A DNA stretch of 35,671 nt from a virus (IMGVR_UViG_3300031873_000018:1-35671), one strand, 5' to 3'. Positions 1-13,535 are shown, counted from the first letter of the stretch. Translations and numbers: made by a program. Notes: generated by a model from the letters alone, not told the origin.

Positions 1-418
1 TGTTCCAGTGGGCGGCGTGCGCCAGGATATACATGCCGTAGCTCGACGCGAGCAGCGCCCGCAGCGCGTTGATGAGGCCGACTTCGGTCGGGTTCGGCAC
101 CTGCATCATCGGCGTGGGCGTCGGCGCTGGCGTGGCCATCTGATCCATGTCCAACAGCACCGCGCGTCCCAGATCGGTCATCTTGCGGATCGGCTTGCCG
201 ATGGTGCCACGCGGCGGAGTGGCCGATGCCTTGAACGGCTTGCCGAGCGACCCCTTGCCGTTCCACACGAACGGCTCGTTCGCGGTCGGATCGTCACTCA
301 GCAAGCTCGGGCCGAGCGCCGCCGTACAGATCGCGAAGGCGTTCGCGCCAGGGTTCTTCGCCTGAACCGACGCTACGCACGAATCCCACTTGGCCGTGTG
401 ATGGCCCTTTCCAGGCAT
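1..418 (-). CDS. Partial head-region protein with Dps/ferritin-like C-terminus
   Basis: The gene starts at 418 behind a strong AGGAGG site 6-8 bases upstream and runs off the left edge of the window after 139 codons. The first 40 residues hold a small Cys-containing module (KWDSCV near residue 11, then AICTAAL near 29). A Pro/Thr linker follows (PAPTPTP near 100), and then a helix with ALLASSYGMYILAHAAHWN. The ending resembles the first helix of Dps-like ferritins, where a YxxxxxAHxxHWN pattern carries the ferroxidase-type histidines. Family assignment is an inference because only the start of that domain is visible. It lies downstream of portal and tagged cargo genes, where capsid, protease or internal head proteins are expected. 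It could instead be a minor head protein with a chance HWN match. Confidence 0.6.
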   Translation of the reverse strand, partial: MPGKGHHTAKWDSCVASVQAKNPGANAFAICTAALGPSLLSDDPTANEPFVWNGKGSLGKPFKASATPPRGTIGKPIRKMTDLGRAVLLDMDQMATPAPTPTPMMQVPNPTEVGLINALRALLASSYGMYILAHAAHWN

Positions 419-431
419 CGCATTCCTCCTC

Positions 432-680
432 TTACCCAGCCGGTCGGCGCGGGTCTTCGCCGTCGTTCGTGCAGATGTCACGGCCCAAACCGTCGAGCGT
501 TCGACGCCAGGTCCGGTCAAGCCCACTCGTGCGCGGTTCGTCGCCATCGGGGAAGGTCGTCGTGTCCACGCCCTGCCGATCGTCCTTGCGCGTGTCACTC
601 AGCGTGCGGTTCGGGCGCGTGGTCGCTGCCAGCGCCTCCGCCCGCTCGTCCATCATGTCGTCGGTCCAGTCCTGCGTCAT
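432..680 (-). CDS. Small hydrophilic protein, function unknown
   Basis: This encodes 82 residues, rich in Asp, Arg and Thr, with no Cys-rich motif, signal peptide or membrane segment. It begins MTQDWTDDMMDE and is likely unstructured over much of its length. A purine-rich stretch (GTGAGG) lies about 8 bases before the ATG. It sits 12 bases after the gene ending at 693 and 13 bases before the ferritin-like gene, so it belongs to the head-region operon. I do not recognise a family. The ordered position in a tight operon is the main evidence that it is real. Confidence 0.6.
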   Translation of the reverse strand: MTQDWTDDMMDERAEALAATTRPNRTLSDTRKDDRQGVDTTTFPDGDEPRTSGLDRTWRRTLDGLGRDICTNDGEDPRRPAG

Positions 681-692
681 CGCGGCCTCACG

Positions 693-1442
693 TCACCGAG
701 GCCGAGGCTCGTTCCACTCCCGCACGCCCCAACGGCCGTGTGGCTTTGGCTTCGGCTTCGTGGTCTTCGGCGCGACATGGGAGGTGTCCACCTCTGGCCC
801 GCGCATCACATGGTCAATGTCGAACGGATCGACCGGATCGCCAGGGTCCGTGCGAAGCGCCTCTTTCGCGTTCTCTGTAGTCCACCCAGATCCGGGGCCA
901 CCTGCCGCTCGTGGCCTCAAGATTAATCCGTGCTTCTCTCGCCGCTCATCGATCCGCCGATCCGCTTCAGCGTCAGCGGCCGCCTCGTCCGCGTTGGCCT
1001 CATCCTCAAAGACCTGCGACTGATATTCATCGAAGTGGTCCTTCGCGTACTTCAGCGCTTCCTGCTCCGCGAACGTCTTCAGGTCTGGCGTGATCTTTAT
1101 GGCCCCAGTAGAACCCGTGACCGCCCTGATCTCAACACTCTCATTGTCGATATCGAACGAGGCGCCGGACCCAGGATAATCGAAGGTCGCCCGCTCCCCA
1201 GGCTCCAAGGTGCCGGTCGCCTTGTACGTGAAGTCGGCCGTAACCTCTTGGCCCTGCCACTGGATGTTCACGCCATCCTCGGTCTCGAAATCGCGCTCAT
1301 TCGCCCGCCGAGGACGGGTGCGGCGCTTGGCCTTCCGCTCAGCATTGAACTTTTCCCACGACTTTGAGTCGAGATCGAGGCTGGCACTCTCCGCGCCGAG
1401 CGCGGCCCCTGCCGCCTCTAAGTCTTCCTTCTTGATGTCCAT
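693..1442 (-). CDS. Tagged head-region protein 1 (shared N-terminal module), 249 aa
   Basis: The start at 1442 is chosen because it follows a TGAGGT site and because the protein then begins directly with the shared module: MDIKKEDLEAAG, a Gly-Ala helix, then LDLDSKSWEKFN and a basic tail (residues 1-45). The rest is unrelated to its neighbours: a beta-rich middle (about 50-140) followed by an acidic Ala/Glu/Asp helix around 150-185 and a Pro/Lys-rich end. No enzyme motif is visible. It is the last of five consecutive genes with this module. I infer that the module is a virion-targeting or assembly signal and the body is cargo; the function of the body is unknown. Confidence 0.75.
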   Translation of the reverse strand: MDIKKEDLEAAGAALGAESASLDLDSKSWEKFNAERKAKRRTRPRRANERDFETEDGVNIQWQGQEVTADFTYKATGTLEPGERATFDYPGSGASFDIDNESVEIRAVTGSTGAIKITPDLKTFAEQEALKYAKDHFDEYQSQVFEDEANADEAAADAEADRRIDERREKHGLILRPRAAGGPGSGWTTENAKEALRTDPGDPVDPFDIDHVMRGPEVDTSHVAPKTTKPKPKPHGRWGVREWNEPRPR

Positions 1443-1449
1443 GTCAACC

Positions 1450-2601
1450 TCACACCCCGTGCGGTTTGCTGTCGTGCGGCGCGGATGAATGCCCGTCGAG
1501 CTTCGCCGCATCGGCGGCCATCTTCGCGTCGATCTCGGCCTCCAGCGCAGCGTCGTCCTGCTCCGTCCACGGGTCATCGATGACGGGCACCAATTCGCCC
1601 TGCTCGTTCTTCTCGAAGCCGTTCGCCATCTTGAACTCCTGCATCGCGAGATTGATTTCGTCCTTGAGCGGGGGACGACGCAACCCGCCCGTGAGCTTGT
1701 CCCACGTATCGCTGGCAGGCGCGGGTGCGGTCGTGGCCGTGGCCCGAGGTGTTCGCGCGCGTCGCGGAACCGCCGCGCGCTCCAGCCGCGTCTGCAACGT
1801 CGAACTCACCGCCGCCGCCTGTCCCGCACGCGCCATTGACGACTCGCGCATCGCTCGCCGATACGCCGTGGCCTGCACCATCGCACCCGCCGCTTTCTTC
1901 GCATCGCCCTGCGAGGACGCGAGCCGCGCTTCCTCCAGCCCGAACTGCACTCTCCGCGCCAGCAGCATCGGGTCGCCGCCGTAGCCAGGCTTCGCGTCGT
2001 TCGTCGCACGCATCGCCTTGGCGATGCAGTTGCGCGTCATAATCGTGATGCCGCCCCAGCCGGTCAGCTTCGCCGCCGCGCTGTTCGTCATCGGCCCCGT
2101 GAGCGGGTCTTCGCCCGCTTCCGCGTTGAACTCGCGCTCCATGACCGACTGAAGCCGCTGGGCGATCTGCACTTGGGCGGCGTGATCGCCGCTGGCCTTT
2201 GCCCCCGACCACTCGTTCGAGATGGTCTCGGTCTCGGCGACCACGGCGTCGCGATGCATCTTCTCGGCGGTGCGGTTGCCCATCCACGCGGGACCACGCC
2301 CCGCCACAAGTCCCTGCGTCGTGCGGGTGACCGTGCTGGTATCGACGCCCGTGGCGCGTTGCACGGCATCGCGCACCATCGCCGCGTGCGGATCGTGACC
2401 TGGCTGGCCGCGACGGGCGACCGTTCTGGCCGTCGCTCGACCGGCGGGAGTGGCGACGTTGTGTGTGCGTCCGGTTCGCCCCTTCTTGCGCGCCTCGTTC
2501 CACTTCGTCCAGTCAAGGTCTACGCGCTGCTCGGCGATTTCAGCCCCGACGATCTCGCCAGCCGCTTCAAGCGCCTGCTTCTGGTTCTGTTCCTTCGCCA
2601 T
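1450..2601 (-). CDS. Tagged head-region protein 2, 383 aa
   Basis: The start at 2601 follows GGAGGAG closely. An alternative in-frame ATG at 2625 also has a fair site and overlaps the previous stop, so the start is not certain. From 2601 the protein begins with a divergent copy of the shared module: QALEAAGEIVGAE, then VDLDWTKWNEARKKG (residues 9-40). The body is Ala-rich and mostly helical, about residues 60-330, with long stretches such as ARRVQFGLEEARLA, and an acidic end (EAEIDAKMAADAA). No signal peptide, membrane segment or catalytic motif is seen. Long helices would suit an internal virion or scaffold-like protein, but that is inference. Confidence 0.72.
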   Translation of the reverse strand: MAKEQNQKQALEAAGEIVGAEIAEQRVDLDWTKWNEARKKGRTGRTHNVATPAGRATARTVARRGQPGHDPHAAMVRDAVQRATGVDTSTVTRTTQGLVAGRGPAWMGNRTAEKMHRDAVVAETETISNEWSGAKASGDHAAQVQIAQRLQSVMEREFNAEAGEDPLTGPMTNSAAAKLTGWGGITIMTRNCIAKAMRATNDAKPGYGGDPMLLARRVQFGLEEARLASSQGDAKKAAGAMVQATAYRRAMRESSMARAGQAAAVSSTLQTRLERAAVPRRARTPRATATTAPAPASDTWDKLTGGLRRPPLKDEINLAMQEFKMANGFEKNEQGELVPVIDDPWTEQDDAALEAEIDAKMAADAAKLDGHSSAPHDSKPHGV

Positions 2602-2626
2602 TGCTCCTCCACGCTCGTTCGCCATT

Positions 2627-3523
2627 TCAGCTCCCGATGTAGGTGCCCGTGTTCTTGCCGCCGATCCGAATCTGGCCGGTGGCTGGGTCAACAACCTCAC
2701 GACGCGCATCGGCCGACCCAGGCGCGGCCCCCGTGCCGTGACCGCCAGTCGCCGCCGCCGCCGACCGACCCCGCCTTCGCCCACTAGGACTGAGGGGCGT
2801 CTTGCGTGCTGATGCTTCTGAGATGGGTCGCCCCAGTTCATCGGTCATCGCGGATCGTCTGGGCAGTTCTGGGTACCGCTTTGCTTTCGACGCCAGATGC
2901 CGATCCAGCATCGCGTCGTCCTCGCCATGATGCGCGGTTCCGCTCGCCGTGCTGGTGCTGGTGTGCCACTTGACCTGCCCGCCCGGACTGACGTTCACGG
3001 AAATGTTGTGCGGACCATTCTTGTAGGTGTGGGCCACGTAGGCAACGTCGTTCCCGTAGCCATTCATGATCGGCGTCGAGTGGCTGTACGTGTAGCCGTG
3101 CTTGGTGATGGTGGCGTCGTGCGGATTCTGCGCGTGGGTGGGGTCTTCACCCTGACCGCTACTGTTGACGTTCGTCCATCCCCGCCGTGCGGCGTTCGCC
3201 GCCGACGTGCGGGAACCGCTGAACCGCGGCGTGGGATCGGCGGGGTCGTCCTCGCCGGGCAGGAGTCCCGCCGTGCGTGGCGGGGTCGGCGGTGTGGCTG
3301 AACGGCGCCCATCGGGTGTATTGGGCGACCGCTGCCCATGCTGTTCTTCGTAGTCGCGGTTCACATCGTTGGCGGCGGCACGATTGGCGCGGCGACCTCG
3401 GGATGCCGCACGGCGCTGCGCGTTCCACTTGGCCCACGACGCGGAGTCGAGATGCATCCCGATGGTGGCCAGCTCCACGCCGATCCGCTCGCCCGCACTC
3501 TTGAGGTCGCGTTCGTTCGCCAT
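2627..3523 (-). CDS. Tagged head-region protein 3, 298 aa
   Basis: The ATG at 3523 follows AAGGA; that site lies within the second copy of a 51-bp direct repeat. The first 45 residues are the shared module: MANERDLKSAGERIGVE, then MHLDSASWAKWNAQRR. A low-complexity Arg/Asn/Pro linker follows to about residue 115. A compact beta-rich stretch around 130-200 is rich in Tyr, His and Thr (HGYTYSHSTPIMNGYG). The C-terminal 90 residues are basic and disordered-looking, ending NTGTYIGS. No family is recognised. The middle domain could be a small binding domain. The gene ends just before the two candidate starts of tagged protein 2. Confidence 0.72.
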   Translation of the reverse strand: MANERDLKSAGERIGVELATIGMHLDSASWAKWNAQRRAASRGRRANRAAANDVNRDYEEQHGQRSPNTPDGRRSATPPTPPRTAGLLPGEDDPADPTPRFSGSRTSAANAARRGWTNVNSSGQGEDPTHAQNPHDATITKHGYTYSHSTPIMNGYGNDVAYVAHTYKNGPHNISVNVSPGGQVKWHTSTSTASGTAHHGEDDAMLDRHLASKAKRYPELPRRSAMTDELGRPISEASARKTPLSPSGRRRGRSAAAATGGHGTGAAPGSADARREVVDPATGQIRIGGKNTGTYIGS

Positions 3524-3524
3524 G

Positions 3525-3626
3525 TTCAGTCCTTCACACCCAGCGCCGCCCGCCAGCCCGGGATTTCCTTGATGTTTCAGTCCTTCACACCCAGCGCCGC
3601 CCGCCAGCCCGGGATTTCCTTGATGT
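3525..3626. repeat. Perfect 51-bp tandem duplication at a gene junction
   Basis: Positions 3525-3575 and 3576-3626 are identical. One copy encodes the last 16-17 codons of the 267-residue tagged protein (ending IPGWRAALGVKD) with its stop; the other lies after that stop and carries the AAGGA ribosome-binding site of the next gene. The unit is a multiple of three. It looks like a recent slippage or recombination duplication that left both the upstream C-terminus and the downstream translation start intact. Confidence 0.95.
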
Positions 3627-4380
3627 CGCTCCCGCCCGCCCGTTCCTTGCGCCAACGACGGGGTCGTATGCGCGGGACGACCGCGCGTGCTCGCGCACGC
3701 TGGGCTTTGGGCTTCGGGCCTTCCTCCGTGCCATCCCACGGCTTCGTCATGTTCGGCACCTTCAGCGTGGCGACCTTCCGCATGCCGTCGTAGCGGAACA
3801 CCATCGTGGACCCCGGCTTGAAGTCGGTGATGGACACCGTGCCCGCCTGCGTGGCCGTATGCAACGTGACGTCGCGCCCAGACTCAATGTACTTCTTGAT
3901 GAGCGGCCCAGACTTCAGCGCCCCTTCGCGGTGGCCCGGCACCGTCACCACATTCGTATCCATCCCACTCACCAGCGTGCCGTTGATCGGCCGCGGCGTG
4001 CTGAGCGCCGGCATATCGGGCACCACGCGCTTGCGTCCAGCCCCGCTACCCGCCATGCGAGCGCGTGCGGCGGCAGCATCATCGTCGGCCCCGAACTCAG
4101 CCATCGCCTCGTCCATCGGATCGTGCCGCGTGCGATGCGCCGTGGTCGAAGGCGCGGGCGGCTTCGTGACCTTGCCACTCAGCGGCTCCGACTGGCCGCT
4201 CTCAGCATTGGCCGCTGACCCGACTTGGTTGCGGCCTTGGCCGCGACGGGCCTTGCGGGCGGCGTTGAACTTCTCCCACGACTTCGAGTCGAGGTTCATG
4301 CCGACGTTGCGCAGCGAGAGCGCCATCTCCTCGCCCACCGCCCGTCCCGCCGCTTCCAGGTCTTCGCGTTTGATGCTCAT
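3577..4380 (-). CDS. Tagged head-region protein 4, 267 aa
   Basis: The start at 4380 overlaps the stop of the HD-domain gene (ATGA), so translation is probably coupled. Residues 1-50 are the clearest copy of the shared module: MSIKREDLEAAGRAVGEE, then MNLDSKSWEKFNAARKARRG. A Ser/Pro/Thr-rich linker follows. A small beta-rich domain occupies roughly residues 130-215 (alternating Val/Thr strands, e.g. SGRDVTLHTATQAGTVSI). A very basic segment, KPKAQRARARAVVPR, comes before the end, and the final 16 residues are duplicated in DNA after the stop. The basic tail may bind nucleic acid. No catalytic motif is visible and I do not recognise the family. Confidence 0.75.
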   Translation of the reverse strand: MSIKREDLEAAGRAVGEEMALSLRNVGMNLDSKSWEKFNAARKARRGQGRNQVGSAANAESGQSEPLSGKVTKPPAPSTTAHRTRHDPMDEAMAEFGADDDAAAARARMAGSGAGRKRVVPDMPALSTPRPINGTLVSGMDTNVVTVPGHREGALKSGPLIKKYIESGRDVTLHTATQAGTVSITDFKPGSTMVFRYDGMRKVATLKVPNMTKPWDGTEEGPKPKAQRARARAVVPRIRPRRWRKERAGGSDIKEIPGWRAALGVKD

Positions 4381-5762
4381 GTTCGTCTCCGTGCCAGAAG
4401 GAAGGCCCCGATGGGGATGTCGCGTAGGATCTTCTTGCCGCTCACCCTGATGATGACCTTCGGCGGGTTGCCGAAGTACTGAATCGGCGATGCCTTGAAG
4501 TCGTCCAGCTTCTTGCCGAACTCCTTCGCCATCTTCGCGAACGACGCCTGACCCATGTCCAAGACACTCATCAGCGCATCGTTCCCGCGATTGACCACGT
4601 GGATGACGGGAGCCTTGTACTGGCGGTCCCACGATACGCGCTTGATCTTCCCGCTCCACATCCCGCCGATGAACTTCGGCAGTCCCGCATTGACCTCTGA
4701 CGTGGCCCTCGCCAACTGCGACTTCAGACCCTCGGGCAAGTTCGACTTCTTGATATTGTCGGTGAGCGTGTTCTGCAACGTCGACACATCCATCTCGCCG
4801 CGGGCGAACGCTTCCATCGCGGTGCGGTTCTCCGGCACGTAGCGGAACAGGCCAGGCGTCTTCTCGGGATAAAACAAGGCGACGTTGTCGGCTAAGCGGC
4901 AACTCGATGCGAGCTTGTCGTTCTCCCAGTCCATATCCTTCGCGTCGTGCGTGGCGATGATGCTCGACGTGCGCTTCGCTGCCTCAGGCCCAAACGCCTT
5001 CTCCACCAGCGGACCGACGTTGGCATCGAAGTGCTGCTGGCTCCAATGGCCGTGGCCTTTGTCCTGCCAAGCCCGCGCCGGATCGGTGAGATAGCCGGTG
5101 TCGTGGAACGTCGCCACGAGGGCGCCGATGATGCGATCGTTGGTCGTGCCGCCCGACGCGCGGAGTAGATCGTCGGTCGTGCGCAGGTTGCCGTAGAGGT
5201 GGTGAATGCCGTGGTCGCCCAGCACGCGCGTGGCCGCTTCGACTTCTTGCGCGATGAGGGCATCGGTGGCCATGCGCACCAGCGCCGCGCCCGCAGAAAG
5301 GTCTTGCGCCCGCGACAGGATACGGTCCGCGATGTTCTCGGCCACATGCCCGATCATCTTGATCGCTTCTGGCGCGAGTTTGTCCGCACACTGATCGATG
5401 CGGGCGCGAATGTCTTCAAACGGGTCGCCCGTTTCGGGCCACGGCTCATCCGTCGTCAGCGCAGCGATGCGCTTGGGAATCGCGTTCGTGGCGTCGGCGA
5501 TGCGGTCACGCTCCGCTTCAGGCGTCTTGGCGTACCATTCCTTGTCGAGACTGGGTGCGGGCGTCGTCCACGCGGCTTTCTCTTCCTCCGTTGTCGGGGT
5601 CGCGGTCTTCTTCTGTTCCATCGATCGCGCGGTACGCCCCTTGCGCTTGCGCAGCGCGTTGAACTTCTCCCACGACTTCGCGTCGAGGTCGAGGTGGGCG
5701 TATTCCTCGCCGATGATCTCGCCGAGGGTTTCCAGATCGAAGCGACTCGGGCGCATCGTCAT
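4377..5762 (-). CDS. Tagged HD-domain phosphohydrolase-like protein, 461 aa
   Basis: The start at 5762 (GAGGAG site, ATGA overlap with the previous stop) gives the shared module at residues 1-45: FDLETLGEIIGEEYAHLDLDAKSWEKFN in two helices, then a basic stretch. Residues about 180-300 match the HD metal-dependent phosphohydrolase layout: a histidine helix (DHGIHHLYG near 183), the HD pair in ATFHDTGYL (H220, D221), THD near 271-273, and CRLADNVALF (D292). Such domains cleave phosphomonoesters or phosphodiesters of nucleotides. The C-terminal 90 residues (VIHVVNRGND and IIRVSGKK) form a further beta-rich domain. As a tagged head-region protein it could act inside the capsid or be delivered with the genome; this is inference. 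Confidence 0.75.
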   Translation of the reverse strand: MTMRPSRFDLETLGEIIGEEYAHLDLDAKSWEKFNALRKRKGRTARSMEQKKTATPTTEEEKAAWTTPAPSLDKEWYAKTPEAERDRIADATNAIPKRIAALTTDEPWPETGDPFEDIRARIDQCADKLAPEAIKMIGHVAENIADRILSRAQDLSAGAALVRMATDALIAQEVEAATRVLGDHGIHHLYGNLRTTDDLLRASGGTTNDRIIGALVATFHDTGYLTDPARAWQDKGHGHWSQQHFDANVGPLVEKAFGPEAAKRTSSIIATHDAKDMDWENDKLASSCRLADNVALFYPEKTPGLFRYVPENRTAMEAFARGEMDVSTLQNTLTDNIKKSNLPEGLKSQLARATSEVNAGLPKFIGGMWSGKIKRVSWDRQYKAPVIHVVNRGNDALMSVLDMGQASFAKMAKEFGKKLDDFKASPIQYFGNPPKVIIRVSGKKILRDIPIGAFLLARRRT

Positions 5763-7458: not shown

Positions 7459-10326
7459 TTAGCCGGCTTTCGCCGAGTCCTCGTTGGCGCCCGGCTTCGG
7501 GGGCTCAGGCCCCGGCGCGGTCGCTGGTGGTGCGCCGATCGGCGCGGGTGCCTGCGGAGGCACCGGCTTCTTCGACTTCCGCGTTTCCGACTCCTCCATC
7601 GGCGGCAGATCGAGCAGCTTGCGTAGGAGTTTCTCGGTCTCGTCGTCGGGCGTGAGCCACGCCGACTTCTCAGCCGCTTCCTGCGCCCCTTCTTGCGTTT
7701 GACCGGGGGCCTGCGGCTGCTGCTGGCCCGATTTTCCCGGCGAGGCTGACCGCGAGAGCGTGGCGAGCGTGGTCACCAAGTTCTGCAGATCGACGCGCTC
7801 CAAGTCGCGACAGGTGACGCGCGGGTACTTCCGCTTCGTCATGTCGAAGTTCAAATCGCAGTTATGAGCGGCCAATCCGTCAATGACGTAGGAGTGAACA
7901 TCTGCGACTTCAAGATTGAAGACTTGGCCGCGATAGTGCTGCTGTGACACCGACTTGACGCGGTAGTGATGATAGCCGTCGGCACAGAAACTTTTCTGGT
8001 GCAGACGCTTGCCTCCATCCGGCGCAACGCCAGATTCGATGAATCGACGCAGGGCGCGGCAATGATCGCCCGACACGATGACCTCCCACGCCTCTTTTGA
8101 CCGACCAGATGGGGGTCGCCGTTTCAGCCGACAGCTGATGCCAAGCGATTCGATCAGGACGACCAACGCCTCGGCAAGATGGCGAGAGCGCGTGACAGCG
8201 AAGCCGAATACGTGTCCCGAGTTTGACTCCCAGAACGACCCATCGCCATTCCAGTATCCAGCCAGTAGCGTTTGCTTGCGGTCTGTTGCCCAGCACGGCG
8301 CATCTGGGGGGAGATGCTTGGCGTGGCTGTACTCGCCGCACTCACGACGGAGTTGATCAACGAGATCAGGACACGGGCGTGTCTGCACGATCACCACGTT
8401 CCGCTGACGACGAACTGGTCGAACATCCACGCCGCACGAGTCAAGCGCATCGAGAAGGGCGACCACGAATCCTCGACGCTCATCGGATGCGCCCAACGTG
8501 AACTGCACGCCTTGGTACTGTGGCTCGCCACCCCTGACTGGCTTGAGATAGCAACCCTCAGCCAAGAACCATCCCATCACCGAACACATCTCTGGCGATG
8601 GAGCGGGTGCTTCGACGCCAGGCATCGACACGACTGGCGACAGCAGGTACTCGCCGCGGCAGACCGCAGCCGCATCGCGCCATGTTTGCGTTGATGCGGG
8701 GGTCGCTATAGCCGCCGTTCCACGCCGCCCGTACGGATAGCGGTCATCGCTGTACACGGCCATCGTATCGGTGTATCGATTGCGCTGCATGAACAACGGT
8801 CGCGCGGCGGCGACCAGCAACGGATGCTCTGGCGTGCAGACGATTGGGTCATGTCCGACCACCTGAATTTCTGCCATCGGACCGTCATAATCACGCACCA
8901 TCGTTTCGCGCACGACATGGGGCTGACCATCATGTCCAAGGACGAGATCCCCGATGCCGACCTCGGCAATCGGCTTCCGCGTGCCATCGGCCAGCGTCAC
9001 TCTTGCGGTAGGAGGAAAGCACAGCTGCTTCACGACCTGGTGCTTGAGGTCGGCGCTAATGCCCGCCGCCACGCCGTTCAGGCTGGACACGAACATGTCC
9101 GTCAACCGCGACCCAAACCCTAACGTCCCATGCGGGTCCTGCCCCATTGTCAGAAAGCCAGCCAGCACATTGCGGGCGATCTGCTGGTCGTGATGATCGA
9201 TCCACTGGGACGCGCCCGACCCCGCCGTCGCACTTCCCGTCTTCGGCAACAGATCGTAGGTCACATGCGGCGGGGCAATCAGGTACGCCCGCTCGTTCGC
9301 CCGCACGGCTTTCAAGACTTCGACCAAGGCATCGAGGTCCTGCTGGTTGAGCGTGTGGCCTTCTTCCAGTTGGGCGACGGGAATGCCCACGCCCCATCGG
9401 TCTAGCCTGACGCCCTCCTGGTGATACGCCTGGTCCTTGAAGTAGAAATTGCGATATATCGGCCTCAAGAGGGACCGCCCTTGGTAGTTGTCGCCTTCAC
9501 GTTCCAACGTGCAGACCAGACAATACTCAGCGGGGATCTCTAAATACTGAAACGACACCGCCGTGCCGTAGTGAACGGGGGAGGCGTTCGCGACCCCCGG
9601 ATAGATCCCGCTCAACGGGACGTCGCGCTGGCCACCGCCAGGGAGCATGCGTCCACTCCCCGCTGCTGGGTACGACGTGCTGACGGGAACGGGTGCGTAC
9701 TGCACAACCGCCTTCAACCGCCCGTTGCGATCGACATGCCACATGCGAATCGTCTTCGGCAGACGCGGGGCGAGGCGAAGAAGACGATACGCGCCCTCGT
9801 CGTCGACCTTCCAGACTTTCTCGAGGACGCTAAAGCCGAAATCCAGTTGGAGGAGGATGTGCCGCAGGGTACTGTCCCACGACGACTCCATCGCGTCGTC
9901 CTCGAACAGGGCATGGTTGCAGAAGTCGGCAATCGCCTGATCGACGTTGTCGCCATCGGTGGGTGGGAGACACGTCCAAGTGGCCCCGCGCAACGGCAGC
10001 TTGATGACCGACAGCATCGCACGAATCTGCGCGTCCCCCATGCGCATCTTGTCGTAGATGCGCACCGCCGTGACGAAGTTGTCCAGCTCGGGGTTGTAAT
10101 CTTCGCGGCGGATGTAGCCGCCGAAGTTTTCCGTGCCGCTCGCGCCAAACTCAGCGCCGCGCGTGATCGGATGGACATGCGGCGGTACGCCATCGTTGGC
10201 GATGGTCGGCGAAGTTGCCGGCTGCTGGCCTGGGCGCGTATCGGCGTTGATGATGGCCGCATTGCCCAAGGTTGGGCGGGCCAGCCACGGCAGAACATCG
10301 CGCAGGAATTGAAGTCGTGACGCCAT
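7459..10326 (-). CDS. DUF935-type portal protein interrupted by an intein, 955 aa precursor
   Basis: The host protein (about 568 residues after splicing) resembles Mu gp29/DUF935 portals: conserved-looking stretches include RIYDKMRMGDAQIRAMLSV, LQLDFGFSVLEKVWK, GDNYQGRSLLRPIYR and NQQDLDALVEVLKAV, ending in a Pro/Gln-rich tail. Portals form the dodecameric ring through which DNA enters and leaves the capsid. The start at 10326 (MASRLQFLRDVLPW) is preferred over upstream in-frame codons because it lies just after the Zn-ribbon stop, although the ribosome-binding site is weak. Residues 436-822 are an intein placed between KQL and CDLNFD, near the conserved C-terminal part of the portal. Terminase genes lie just upstream, as usual. 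Confidence 0.9.
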   Translation of the reverse strand: MASRLQFLRDVLPWLARPTLGNAAIINADTRPGQQPATSPTIANDGVPPHVHPITRGAEFGASGTENFGGYIRREDYNPELDNFVTAVRIYDKMRMGDAQIRAMLSVIKLPLRGATWTCLPPTDGDNVDQAIADFCNHALFEDDAMESSWDSTLRHILLQLDFGFSVLEKVWKVDDEGAYRLLRLAPRLPKTIRMWHVDRNGRLKAVVQYAPVPVSTSYPAAGSGRMLPGGGQRDVPLSGIYPGVANASPVHYGTAVSFQYLEIPAEYCLVCTLEREGDNYQGRSLLRPIYRNFYFKDQAYHQEGVRLDRWGVGIPVAQLEEGHTLNQQDLDALVEVLKAVRANERAYLIAPPHVTYDLLPKTGSATAGSGASQWIDHHDQQIARNVLAGFLTMGQDPHGTLGFGSRLTDMFVSSLNGVAAGISADLKHQVVKQLCFPPTARVTLADGTRKPIAEVGIGDLVLGHDGQPHVVRETMVRDYDGPMAEIQVVGHDPIVCTPEHPLLVAAARPLFMQRNRYTDTMAVYSDDRYPYGRRGTAAIATPASTQTWRDAAAVCRGEYLLSPVVSMPGVEAPAPSPEMCSVMGWFLAEGCYLKPVRGGEPQYQGVQFTLGASDERRGFVVALLDALDSCGVDVRPVRRQRNVVIVQTRPCPDLVDQLRRECGEYSHAKHLPPDAPCWATDRKQTLLAGYWNGDGSFWESNSGHVFGFAVTRSRHLAEALVVLIESLGISCRLKRRPPSGRSKEAWEVIVSGDHCRALRRFIESGVAPDGGKRLHQKSFCADGYHHYRVKSVSQQHYRGQVFNLEVADVHSYVIDGLAAHNCDLNFDMTKRKYPRVTCRDLERVDLQNLVTTLATLSRSASPGKSGQQQPQAPGQTQEGAQEAAEKSAWLTPDDETEKLLRKLLDLPPMEESETRKSKKPVPPQAPAPIGAPPATAPGPEPPKPGANEDSAKAG
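7861..9021 (-). mobile_element. Intein with LAGLIDADG endonuclease in the portal gene, 387 aa
   Basis: The insert begins with Cys (CFPPTARVTLADGTRKP, block A). It continues with CTPEHPLLV (block B, TxxH), and two LAGLIDADG-type helices: CSVMGWFLAEGCYLK and KQTLLAGYWNGDGSFW. It ends with the block F/G stretch YRGQVFNLEVADVHSYVI and terminal His-Asn, followed by Cys as the +1 residue. All catalytic residues for protein splicing and both acidic residues of the homing endonuclease are visible, so it is probably active. After splicing, the portal would be joined at KQL-CDLNFD. Confidence 0.95.
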
Positions 10327-10330
10327 GTGT

Positions 10331-10564
10331 TTAGAACCGTCGCACGCGAGCATGCGCGTGCGCCCTCGCAGTGTCAAGGAAGTGACTACGTAACTCCCGC
10401 TTCTCAGCCACTTCCGGTGTCTCCGCGTCGGGGGGGATGTCAGCCGCCTTGGCCGACTGCTCGATATGCCAGCTCCGTCCGCAGGCGCTACAGAAACCTT
10501 GACCGCGCCACTCCTCCAGCATGTCTGGCGATGCTTCGCGACAGAAGGGACACGCGATGACCAT
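10331..10564 (-). CDS. Small zinc-ribbon protein, 77 aa
   Basis: The start at 10564 has a GGAGG site 8-9 bases upstream. Two CxxC pairs (CPFC at residues 5-8 and CSAC at 25-28) form a classic zinc ribbon; the rest is a helical, Ala/His/Arg-rich tail. It lies between the large terminase (13-base gap) and the portal, ending 4 bases before the portal start. Small zinc ribbons near terminase genes are common in phages, but their role (packaging accessory, structural, or regulatory) is usually unknown. Zinc binding is well supported; function is not. Confidence 0.75.
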   Translation of the reverse strand: MVIACPFCREASPDMLEEWRGQGFCSACGRSWHIEQSAKAADIPPDAETPEVAEKRELRSHFLDTARAHAHARVRRF

Positions 10565-10577
10565 AAATGGGCCTCCG

Positions 10578-12485
10578 CTAGAAGTAGGACAGACGCGGGG
10601 GCGGATCGGGCTTGGGGTTGTCCATCGGCCTGACGACGTCGCCAGGTTGGCGGTCGCGCTCGCCCGCGTAGTCGGAATCATCGGGTCGCAAGATCGCACC
10701 CGCGGTGACGATGCGCCGGTCGAAGTCGGGCAGGCGTTGCCAGTAGCGGAATTGGTAGACGTAGCGTAGCGCCGAGCAGGCATGGGACCAGTCATCGTGG
10801 ACGGGCAACTGCTTGCCCGGCACGGGGTTGCCTTCCGAGTCGAGCGGCCAGTGGTAGTTGTTCACCGCGTCGATCAGATGCGTGCAGTACGCCGACACCT
10901 CGAAACGACCCTTGCGGATCAGATCGTGGAGAAAGTCCAGCCACTCTAGCATCGATCCGCGCTTCGGTTCGTGGATCACGACGATGCGCGGTTCGCGGGA
11001 TCGCAGGTTTGAAATCCACGACGTCAAGTCGCTCTCACGGTTCTTGCCCGAAGGGTCGCCGTAGTGCATGAGGTCGAGGCCCGTGACCGCATTAACGATC
11101 GGGGCCCAGAGCCCATTCACGAAGGCGTGGTAGTGATCCCACGAGGCATCGCGCCGCTCGTACTCATCGACCCAGCGGATCGTCAAGCTACTCTCATCGA
11201 TCACTTGGCCGAGCAGCAACGAGGTCGGATCATCGACGCCGAAGTCCCATCCCACGACGCACGGACGGTTCGGCTCAAGCACCCGGCGGAGATAGCGCTC
11301 CCGATGCGCGTCCATCGATTCGCGCTCCTGGCGTTCCGGTGTCGCCTCAAGAACATGGCGCGTCGAATCGAAGCTCTCAAACACGCGACCACGTCGGGAC
11401 CGCTCGTAGCTGATGTCGAGTTCGGACGCCACGCCTTCGGGCGTGAGGTCTTGACACTCACGGTCGTACCACGGGCTGCGAGCTTCAGGAGGGCGGAGCG
11501 CCGGGCCGCGGAGGTTGGCACATTCATGCGCCAAGAACTTGTCGCGAGCCGGCAGAAGTTCATCGCGGTCCAGTTCTTCAGGGCTCGGCGTGACCGCCTC
11601 AAGCTGCCAGCCGCAGGTGCAGTACAAGCCTGCGGCCTTGCGGGGATGCTCGGTCCAATGGAAGGACAGCTTGCGGAATGTGGTCGTGGGGGAAAAGCGT
11701 AGGCGGGCAAAGACGTTCCCCTTGCCGTTCGGCGTCGAACTCAAACAAGTGCCGCCCTTGGCCGCCTGGCGCAGTCCCTTGAAGATGGCCTCGGACTTCT
11801 CGATGTAAGCCGCTTCGTCCATCAGCGCCCGCTTGTTCGCGCGCCCGCGGCCGGCTTTGGGCGTGCCCGTCTCTCCGCGAATGTAGCTGCCGCGGCCATC
11901 GTTCTTCGCGAAACCGAGCTTGAAGTCCATCGGCTCTTGCAAGTACGGCGGGAGCGCGAGCCAGAGATGCCGCACCTTGCCGAGGAGCGAGTCCGGCGTC
12001 GATCCTGCCCCACCATCGTCGACTTCATCGGCGCGGCGACTGAGCACCATGTCGCCCCAGTCGTCGTGGAACAGGATGTCCCACAGGAACACGACCATCC
12101 ACGCCCAGGAGAGAAGCATCTGCCGCGACTTCTCCACATGAATGTTTGAAGGTACTTGGGCGGCTTCAAAGAACCGGCGCAAGTACGGATAGAGCGGGAA
12201 CTTGCGCCACTGAGGCGCACCGCTAGGGTCGTCAACGTCCAAGCTCCAGCAATGATGGAAGGCGAACCACTGCAGGCCCCAGCCGTCATGCGCGCATCGC
12301 AGCCACTCCTCGTCGGCATCTTTCAGCGAGCGGATCTCGGGCGCTTGGATTTCCCACTTCGTTCGGAGATAGCCTTCGGGTTCCCAGACGCCCGGCGCGA
12401 TTTCGTTGAACCCGTCTGCGGGCACCCACGTGGTCGCGCGGGCACCCACGCGCGGGGGGCGATGGGAGTGCGGACCCGTGCTCAT
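10578..12485 (-). CDS. terL: Terminase large subunit, 635 aa
   Basis: This is the motor ATPase and nuclease that packages DNA. The N-terminal ATPase shows a Walker-A-like KSRQMLLS (residues 119-126, the K/R-x-R-Q variant common in terminases), Walker B LMDEAAY (D223, E224) and the coupling motif SSTPNGKGN (249-257). The C-terminal nuclease shows VVGWDFGVDDP (D414), a GDPSGKNRES stretch and DDWSHACSALRY near the end, which supply RNase-H-like acidic residues. An inserted Cys pair (CTCGW near 289-292) may bind metal. The start is MSTGPHSH; there is no clear ribosome-binding site, but the ATG overlaps the stop of a tiny upstream reading frame, suggesting coupling. Confidence 0.95.
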   Translation of the reverse strand: MSTGPHSHRPPRVGARATTWVPADGFNEIAPGVWEPEGYLRTKWEIQAPEIRSLKDADEEWLRCAHDGWGLQWFAFHHCWSLDVDDPSGAPQWRKFPLYPYLRRFFEAAQVPSNIHVEKSRQMLLSWAWMVVFLWDILFHDDWGDMVLSRRADEVDDGGAGSTPDSLLGKVRHLWLALPPYLQEPMDFKLGFAKNDGRGSYIRGETGTPKAGRGRANKRALMDEAAYIEKSEAIFKGLRQAAKGGTCLSSTPNGKGNVFARLRFSPTTTFRKLSFHWTEHPRKAAGLYCTCGWQLEAVTPSPEELDRDELLPARDKFLAHECANLRGPALRPPEARSPWYDRECQDLTPEGVASELDISYERSRRGRVFESFDSTRHVLEATPERQERESMDAHRERYLRRVLEPNRPCVVGWDFGVDDPTSLLLGQVIDESSLTIRWVDEYERRDASWDHYHAFVNGLWAPIVNAVTGLDLMHYGDPSGKNRESDLTSWISNLRSREPRIVVIHEPKRGSMLEWLDFLHDLIRKGRFEVSAYCTHLIDAVNNYHWPLDSEGNPVPGKQLPVHDDWSHACSALRYVYQFRYWQRLPDFDRRIVTAGAILRPDDSDYAGERDRQPGDVVRPMDNPKPDPPPRLSYF

Positions 12486-12600: not shown

Positions 12601-13476
12601 CTAGTCGTGCGAGATGACCATGACCTTCTGCGCGTAGGCGACAGGGAAGGTGAACTGGATGATCTTCCCCGCGCTGTCGAGGCTCCGTAGGTAGTCCTGC
12701 AACGCATCATACCGCACGGCGAGGGCGACGTACCCGTGCGGGGTCGGCGAGGGACTTACGCTCGCGCTGGGCGACACCGATGCGCTGGGGGACCGCGAGA
12801 GACTGGCCGATGCGCTCGGGCTGCGCGACTGGCTCGCGGAGGGCGAGAGGCTGGGCGACGCGCTCGCCGATGGCGAAATCGACTCGCTCGCGCTCGGGGA
12901 GATGCTCGGCGAGCGCGATGCCGACGGCGACTGCGACGCACTCGCCGATGGGCTCAGGCTGGGCGACTCGCTCGCGCTGGGCGACTCGCTCGCGCTGGGC
13001 GACTGCGATTCGCTCGCGCTGGGCGAGATGGATGCACTCGCGCTCGGCGATTCGCTGGCGCTCGGTGAGGTCGATTCGCTCGCGCTCGGCGAGATGGATT
13101 CGCTGGCGCTCGGTGAGGTCGATTCGCTCGGGCTGATGCTCGGCGAACTACTGGCCGAGGGCGAGAGCGACTGCGATTCGCTTGCCGAAGGCGATTCGCT
13201 TGCCGAGGGACTCCCGCTCGCGCTCGGGCTGATGGAGGCGCTCGGCGACCGCGACGGGCTGGTGCTCGCCGACGGGCTCAGGCTTGAAGACGGCGACCGT
13301 GAGGAACTGCTGCTCGCGCTCGGGCTACGCGAAGGCGAGGCGGACGCGCTCGGGGAGATGCTCGCCGACGGACTCAAGCTCAGCGACACTGATGCGCTGG
13401 GGGAAACCGACGAGCTCGAACTGGCCGATGGAGAATGCGACGCCGACGGCGAGCGCGAGGCAGACGGGCTGGACAT
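12601..13476 (-). CDS. (Ser-X)n dipeptide-repeat protein with small C-terminal domain, 291 aa
   Basis: The ATG at 13476 follows GGGAGGTGAG. For about 238 residues serine occupies every second position, the other position being mostly Pro, Ala, Glu, Leu, Ile, Arg, Val or Gln (units such as SPSASESPS). The last 52 residues are ordinary folded-looking sequence ([18 protein letters not shown], then [15 protein letters not shown]). The repeat is likely extended and non-globular and could be a spacer, surface fibre or glycosylated stalk, with the C-terminus as anchor or binding head. The gene lies between the small and large terminase genes, an unusual place for a fibre. There is no signal peptide or membrane segment. 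Function unknown. Confidence 0.85.
12757..13473. repeat. GC-rich short-period DNA repeat coding for (Ser-X)n
   Basis: The DNA repeats with a basic period of 6 bases (one Ser codon plus one variable codon) and higher-order units of 18 or more bases, for example tandem copies of GCGCTGGGCGACTCGCTC on the plus strand near 12965-13000. Such arrays gain and lose units by slippage, so length variation between related phages is expected. Confidence 0.9.
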
Positions 13477-13535
13477 CACTCACCTCCCGCCAGACGCCAA
13501 GGGCCCGCCGAATGGTCAGGGCCGCGCCTGGGGAA

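Follow-up and report, generated by a model that had tools for sequence, protein, structure and literature searches.

A short N-terminal header reused on unrelated proteins near phage head genes is a candidate address tag

Why do five consecutive genes of an uncultured phage, whose products otherwise have nothing recognisable in common, begin with the same short stretch of protein? The locus lies in a whole linear IMG/VR virus entry of 35,671 bases (IMGVR_UViG_3300031873_000018; hereafter the window), which is itself a fragment. Transcription on the minus strand proceeds from the terminase large subunit (10578..12485; phrog_2, E 2.5e-17) via a Mu-type portal gene with an intein (7459..10377; PF06074, E 1e-32; phrog_113, E 1e-46; intein and LAGLIDADG families), a 427-aa gene (7446>6163), and a 101-aa gene (6064>5759) to the five genes in question, here termed E (4377..5762, 461 aa), D (3577..4380, 267 aa), C (2627..3523, 298 aa), B (1450..2601, 383 aa), and A (693..1442, 249 aa), respectively. 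Shortly past gene A the contig edge is reached. The starts of the five genes at 1442, 2601, 3523, 4380, and 5762, as given in an earlier note on this DNA, are right, each being the ATG of a minus-strand ORF. The array also lies in the region that this note had indicated, although not just after the portal, as the 427-aa and 101-aa genes intervene. A head protease gene was not found in the window, and the MuF domain PF04233 gave no match in the window record or in any of the records G000, G001, G002, and G003.

Upstream of the terminase gene, an SPSAS-repeat protein is encoded (12601-13479, minus strand), and a late gene of the related contig L006 (7885-8580) specifies a low-complexity tail similar to this protein. 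The portal intein of about 387 aa, which is present in the window (7459-10377), is absent from a strain of otherwise ~99.99% identity (L010:6637-8394); an intein has apparently been gained or lost recently at this packaging gene. The stretch separating genes D and C contains a direct duplication of about 50 bases (3522-3626), in which HQGNPGLAGGAGCEGL is repeated in one frame. Moreover, the gene following gene A (2-598, minus strand) begins with MPGKGHHTAKWDSCVASVQAKNPGANAFAICTAALG, which by eye resembles another header type, and runs off the contig edge in a Dps/ferritin-like stretch (ILAHAAHWN).

The common module, in the following termed the first header, comprises about 45 residues, namely helix 1, a spacer, and helix 2 with the motif LDxxSWxK[FW]NxxRK, followed by a basic run. 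Its five copies form the N-termini of gene E (5631..5756; profile E 1.5e-23), gene D (4237..4380; 1.6e-24), gene C (3395..3523; 8.9e-23), gene B (2470..2601; 2.9e-20), and gene A (1317..1442; 6.6e-24), all on the minus strand. In the alignment 12 columns of the module are invariant. The length of the spacer differs among the copies, and the header of gene B represents a variant, DLDWTKWNEARK, in which three residues preceding the W are missing. Basic runs (RKAKRR, RKKGRTGR, RKARRG) were seen at the end of all five copies. In a leave-one-out test, a profile was built from four copies and the fifth was sought among the ORFs. Each held-out copy was recovered, with E-values ranging from 5.5e-19 for gene A to 4.3e-9 for gene B (genes E, D, and C: 1.3e-14, 2.1e-17, and 7.9e-13), and no further ORF was convincing, the best other one among 647 reaching E 2.3-4.6. 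Likewise, the top score obtained in a shuffled-ORF control was 7.1 bits as compared with 71.8-85.4 bits for the real copies. The invariant columns and the recovery of 5/5 copies indicate that the common N-terminal module proposed by the earlier note is real.

Compared as DNA, the header copies show 48-67% nucleotide identity, with pS values of 0.52-0.77 and pN values of 0.21-0.51. Given this low identity and the near saturation of silent sites, the copies are old and do not stem from a fresh duplication. The comparison indicates that the header is conserved at the level of protein, its residues having been kept since an ancient divergence. AlphaFold, provided with the five-sequence alignment of the module, places helices at residues 5-20 and 26-41; with a pLDDT of 69 and a pTM of 0.31 this two-helix model is of moderate confidence and is fit as a hint only. 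In 50,697 phage records including T4-like phages no tblastn match to the module was obtained, and sequence searches of the PDB returned chance matches only.

Behind the headers the five proteins differ. Past residue 50 we observed no significant mutual similarity between the bodies, the best value being E 0.004 for a weak helical match between B and E and all others being at least 0.17, in agreement with the earlier description of the bodies as unrelated. Searches of genes A to E against Pfam, PHROG, NCBIfam, and PADLOC yielded nothing usable, and by this measure the bodies of genes A to D are orphans without a family match in the four databases. The bodies of genes A and E likewise lack a tblastn match in the 50,697 phage records and hence a cultured relative there. 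In gene E, a linker connects the header to a body with the pattern H..HD..H..HD..D, the positions of which are kept in the alignment with a homologue encoded on contig L027. Since a Cas3-HD profile matches this homologue weakly (E 0.012-0.047), the assignment of the gene E body to the HD type is likely, not proven. The AlphaFold model of gene E alone is poor (pLDDT 42).

We then asked where else the first header occurs. Using five exact-codon patterns and an alignment search, 2.9 million viral contigs were scanned, and beyond the window the header was found in three records only, all of them metagenome fragments: a near-identical strain (L005/L010/L011), L006/L009, and L007/L025. As codon-exact scans miss diverged copies, the true range is probably wider. 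Wherever the length of the contig allows, a phage contains multiple copies. An alignment scan of 84,980 bacterial and archaeal genomes revealed no relative, and the codon pattern gave two chance matches in the same genomes. Pattern matches on L008, L012, L021, and L022 were rejected as chance on account of wrong context, antisense orientation, or low score.

The strain L005/L010/L011, which is ~99.99% identical to the window, contains all five genes and, directly after a shortened gene A, a sixth header gene that begins with MSGQRADNSVDLDWSKWNAKRGKLE. L010 (1-118, minus strand) and the window (~938) diverge from the middle of gene A onward, where gene A of L010 stops earlier, and ahead of the start of the sixth header gene a frameshifted remnant of helix 1 (MDVKKEEAAG) is present. 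In the sixth copy of L010 as well as in L009 and L007 only the second half of the header (LDxxSWxKFNxxRKxKR) is retained, and the core common to the window and L009/L007 amounts to about 19 residues. In L006/L009, an open frame entering from the contig edge comprises DLDAKSWEKWNAERKAKRG, an ART-like region (YHGT) with a weak match to RNA 2′-phosphotransferase (E 0.012), an internal second header copy, LDLDAKSWEKFNAERKAKRH, and a zincin-like region with an HExxH motif (HETLH). Correspondingly, the L007/L025 sequence starts with SWEKFNAERKAKRH at the contig edge and continues into an R-S-E ART-like region recognised by eye; in L025 this region gives way to a CHNPGG header and then to a SAM-lyase-like region, the match of which (E 0.0045) lies below the curated cut-off, one protein thereby bearing both header types. 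Judged by these weak matches and motifs, the L009 protein (ART-like and HExxH) and the L025 protein (ART-like and SAM-lyase-like) look two-domain, and a header before each domain would most simply mean that two tagged neighbours have been fused. The repeated headers may also play a role in cleavage. The expectation that the module occurs at N-termini only thus holds for most copies, but not for the internal one of L009, which lies where two tagged units have apparently been fused.

A core of 12 residues, SWEKFNAERKAK, is identical in gene A, in the second copy of L009, and in L007. Between gene A and L009/L007, 5-6 of its 36 bases differ, and every difference is silent. BLAST reveals no relation between the L007 portal and that of the window strain. 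The sharing of this core as protein between phages with unrelated portals, together with the occurrence of the motif on enzyme-like bodies in two contigs, speaks for the detachable tag that had been suggested from the window.

The body of gene E provides a further argument. The protein encoded by L027:4885-6216 is homologous to it (37% identity over 343 columns, E 6e-67), and the similarity covers residues 109-441 of E, starting past the header. The N-terminus of the L027 protein (MFQSILKYNKCHEPGGSNKGGQFC) carries a different header, CHEPGGSNKGGQFC. As judged by this homology, one kind of body stands behind either of two unrelated headers, depending on the phage. This header swap therefore favours a detachable tag and not paralogy, which the earlier note had set against its own proposal and which is likewise contradicted by the dissimilar bodies within the array. 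A multiple alignment had paired KFN of the first header with EYN of the second; the possibility that both headers represent one family was rejected (hhalign probability 0.2%).

The second header, which was reached via the L007 proteins, conforms to the consensus [YFS]NxCHxP[AG]GxxxGGQFC. A scan with this pattern yielded 14 stretches, the L027 gene being one of them, with far less than one match expected by a rough estimate. Of nine records examined, eight contain 2-15 copies of the header, and the remaining one gave a single weak match. As several records carry near-identical arrays (G005/G007; G006/G009/G010) or one array in common (G002/G011), they represent about five lineages. In the regions examined, 50 second-header proteins fall into 25 body clusters, the largest of which (11 proteins) may be chained through repeated header or pre-header pieces. 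Pfam analysis of 42 of these proteins identified zeta toxin (1e-21), topoisomerase IB (4e-19), DUF3626 (3e-13), ART-PolyVal (7.6e-11), RelA_SpoT (1.2e-8, in two), GNAT (2.1e-6), PI3/4-kinase (3e-5), and DRAT (1e-4), in addition to weaker matches to SAM lyase and zincin (ATLF).

Neighbouring genes of G004 (L040:2669-3598, L041:5975-6797) start with NPYHDPK[ST]G[KR]F, a motif that looks like an abbreviated form of the CHxPxGxxxGGQF header. Stretches of the GALHxxLGVPxGKKIP type, or similar ones rich in K/R, precede the CH..GG header in some proteins of the arrays (L007:1914-2561, L042:10890-11657), and these segments possibly constitute yet another module.

The context of head genes predicted by the earlier note holds in the records examined. 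While the array of the window comes after terminase and portal, the tagged gene of L006 comes before genes for a Mu-like head protease (PF10123, 3.6e-26) and for the major capsid protein (phrog_1005, 1.1e-78). Terminase or portal genes lie beside the arrays of G002, G005-G008, and G010, and on L034 terminase, portal, and a head morphogenesis protein are located downstream of the array. In G006, G010, G008, and G005, header genes are flanked by one terminase-profile part on one side and, on the opposite side, by the second part or by the portal; in G006, for instance, terminase matches at 24.5 kb and 41.0 kb enclose headers at 25-37 kb, with the portal at 42.7 kb. As some headers in the large records are tens of kb away (19-20 kb in G008, 99-104 kb in G005), the link between tag and head genes is strong, not absolute. 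On L042/L043 (G006), L048 (G008), and L044/L045 (G005) the terminase large subunit is seemingly encoded in two separate pieces, and a header-gene array of 5-16 kb splits these pieces from each other or one of them from the portal.

Taken together, the module is very probably a detachable addressing tag, and we assign a probability of roughly 0.6 to the more specific reading that it serves to load proteins into the head. Each of the five genes would then specify a different effector, the first ~45 residues of which act as an interchangeable address. The tag may dock on a component of the assembling head, such as the scaffold-protease, the portal, or the terminase, whereby the tagged effectors would be loaded into the procapsid. 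Upon infection they would enter the host with the DNA, and their bodies might act on host functions or defences.

This reading has precedents. In T4, the internal proteins IPI-III and the ADP-ribosyltransferase Alt have an N-terminal capsid-targeting sequence in common; they are carried inside the head and ejected from it (PMC7411985). Here as there, one N-terminal tag is found on several otherwise unrelated proteins; however, the T4 tag comprises ~10-20 residues and is removed by the gp21 protease, whereas the present one comprises ~45 residues with two predicted helices, has one internal copy (L009), and belongs to a phage with a Mu-type portal. For ejection proteins of phage SPN3US, it has been suggested that N-terminal propeptides direct such proteins into the prohead (PMC7411985), again an N-terminal extension as targeting element, though those named there are 111-130 residues long. 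MuF polymorphic toxins, for which delivery with the DNA was proposed (Jamet et al. 2017, PMC5576092), likewise have variable effector regions joined to a common N-terminal one and are encoded in the head gene region, but it is the MuF head protein itself that they have in common, rather than a ~45-residue tag. Polyvalent proteins comprise 2-15 domains per chain and are predicted to be packaged and injected (Iyer et al. 2017, PMC5512222). They resemble the second-header arrays in their repertoire of ART-PolyVal, RelA/SpoT, GNAT, kinase, and zincin domains and in adjoining virion structural genes; here, in contrast, the activities mostly reside in separate genes with a header copy each, and in the passages of that article considered here no such header is described. 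The motif strings were not found in open-licence paper texts, and an earlier description could exist elsewhere.

Other explanations have to be weighed against loading into the head. If the five genes belonged to a single family that arose by duplication, with C-terminal parts diverged past recognition, this would account for their tandem arrangement and for the clear homology of the module copies; given that the gene E body recurs behind an unrelated header, that tagged bodies elsewhere represent different enzyme-like folds, and that no body resembles another within the window, simple paralogy is largely refuted. Less probable still is that the stretch is kept as DNA homology for the shuffling of bodies. 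The departure of L010 from the window partway through gene A and its sixth header gene could be read in this way, yet the divergence of the copies as DNA, with silent sites near saturation and the protein conserved, disfavours such a recombination cassette.

Of the remaining possibilities, the one to be taken most seriously, although unlikely, is that the tag directs the proteins to the head exterior, the tail, the packaging motor, or a site in the host cell. The evidence at hand is location near packaging genes, and several of the related arrays sit between two terminase-part matches and beside the portal; RelA/SpoT, ART-PolyVal, kinase, and topoisomerase, however, act in the cytoplasm, which fits delivery with the DNA. 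We consider it improbable that the basic run binds phage DNA and thereby draws the proteins passively into the head, with no need of a docking partner: such a run terminates all five copies, but the best-conserved part, LDxxSWxKFN, is not basic, and the second header is found on a homologous body without a comparable run. A similarly small chance, if anything a slightly smaller one, is given to a pro-region that silences the effectors until it is cut in the head or the host. Processing is known for head proteins of T4 and SPN3US (PMC7411985) and for polyvalent proteins (PMC5512222), and the fused proteins of L009 and L025 have a header ahead of each domain like cleavage units. It is nevertheless improbable that a single short module inhibits many unrelated folds, and two unrelated headers would need to play the same role for the E body.

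Loading into the head through a detachable tag, the reading we prefer, may extend beyond this phage. We tentatively consider, at somewhat less than even odds, that uncultured phages use a general postcode scheme, with up to about 15 single-activity effectors per head-region array, several unrelated headers, the same effector behind different headers, and each header fitting the docking site of its own head. Many packaged proteins are already known in T4 and giant phages, and the header swap on a common body, in conjunction with dozens of second-header genes, allows the idea of an address to be tested directly in ordinary phages. If the scheme is true, a phage would gain any effector by fusing its own header to it, short transferable loading signals would mark any protein for packaging, and the headers would be candidate tools for filling phage heads with a cargo of choice. 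Moreover, they would provide a sequence handle by which injected effectors of uncultured phages, anti-defence proteins among them, could be recognised; most such genes there match no family.
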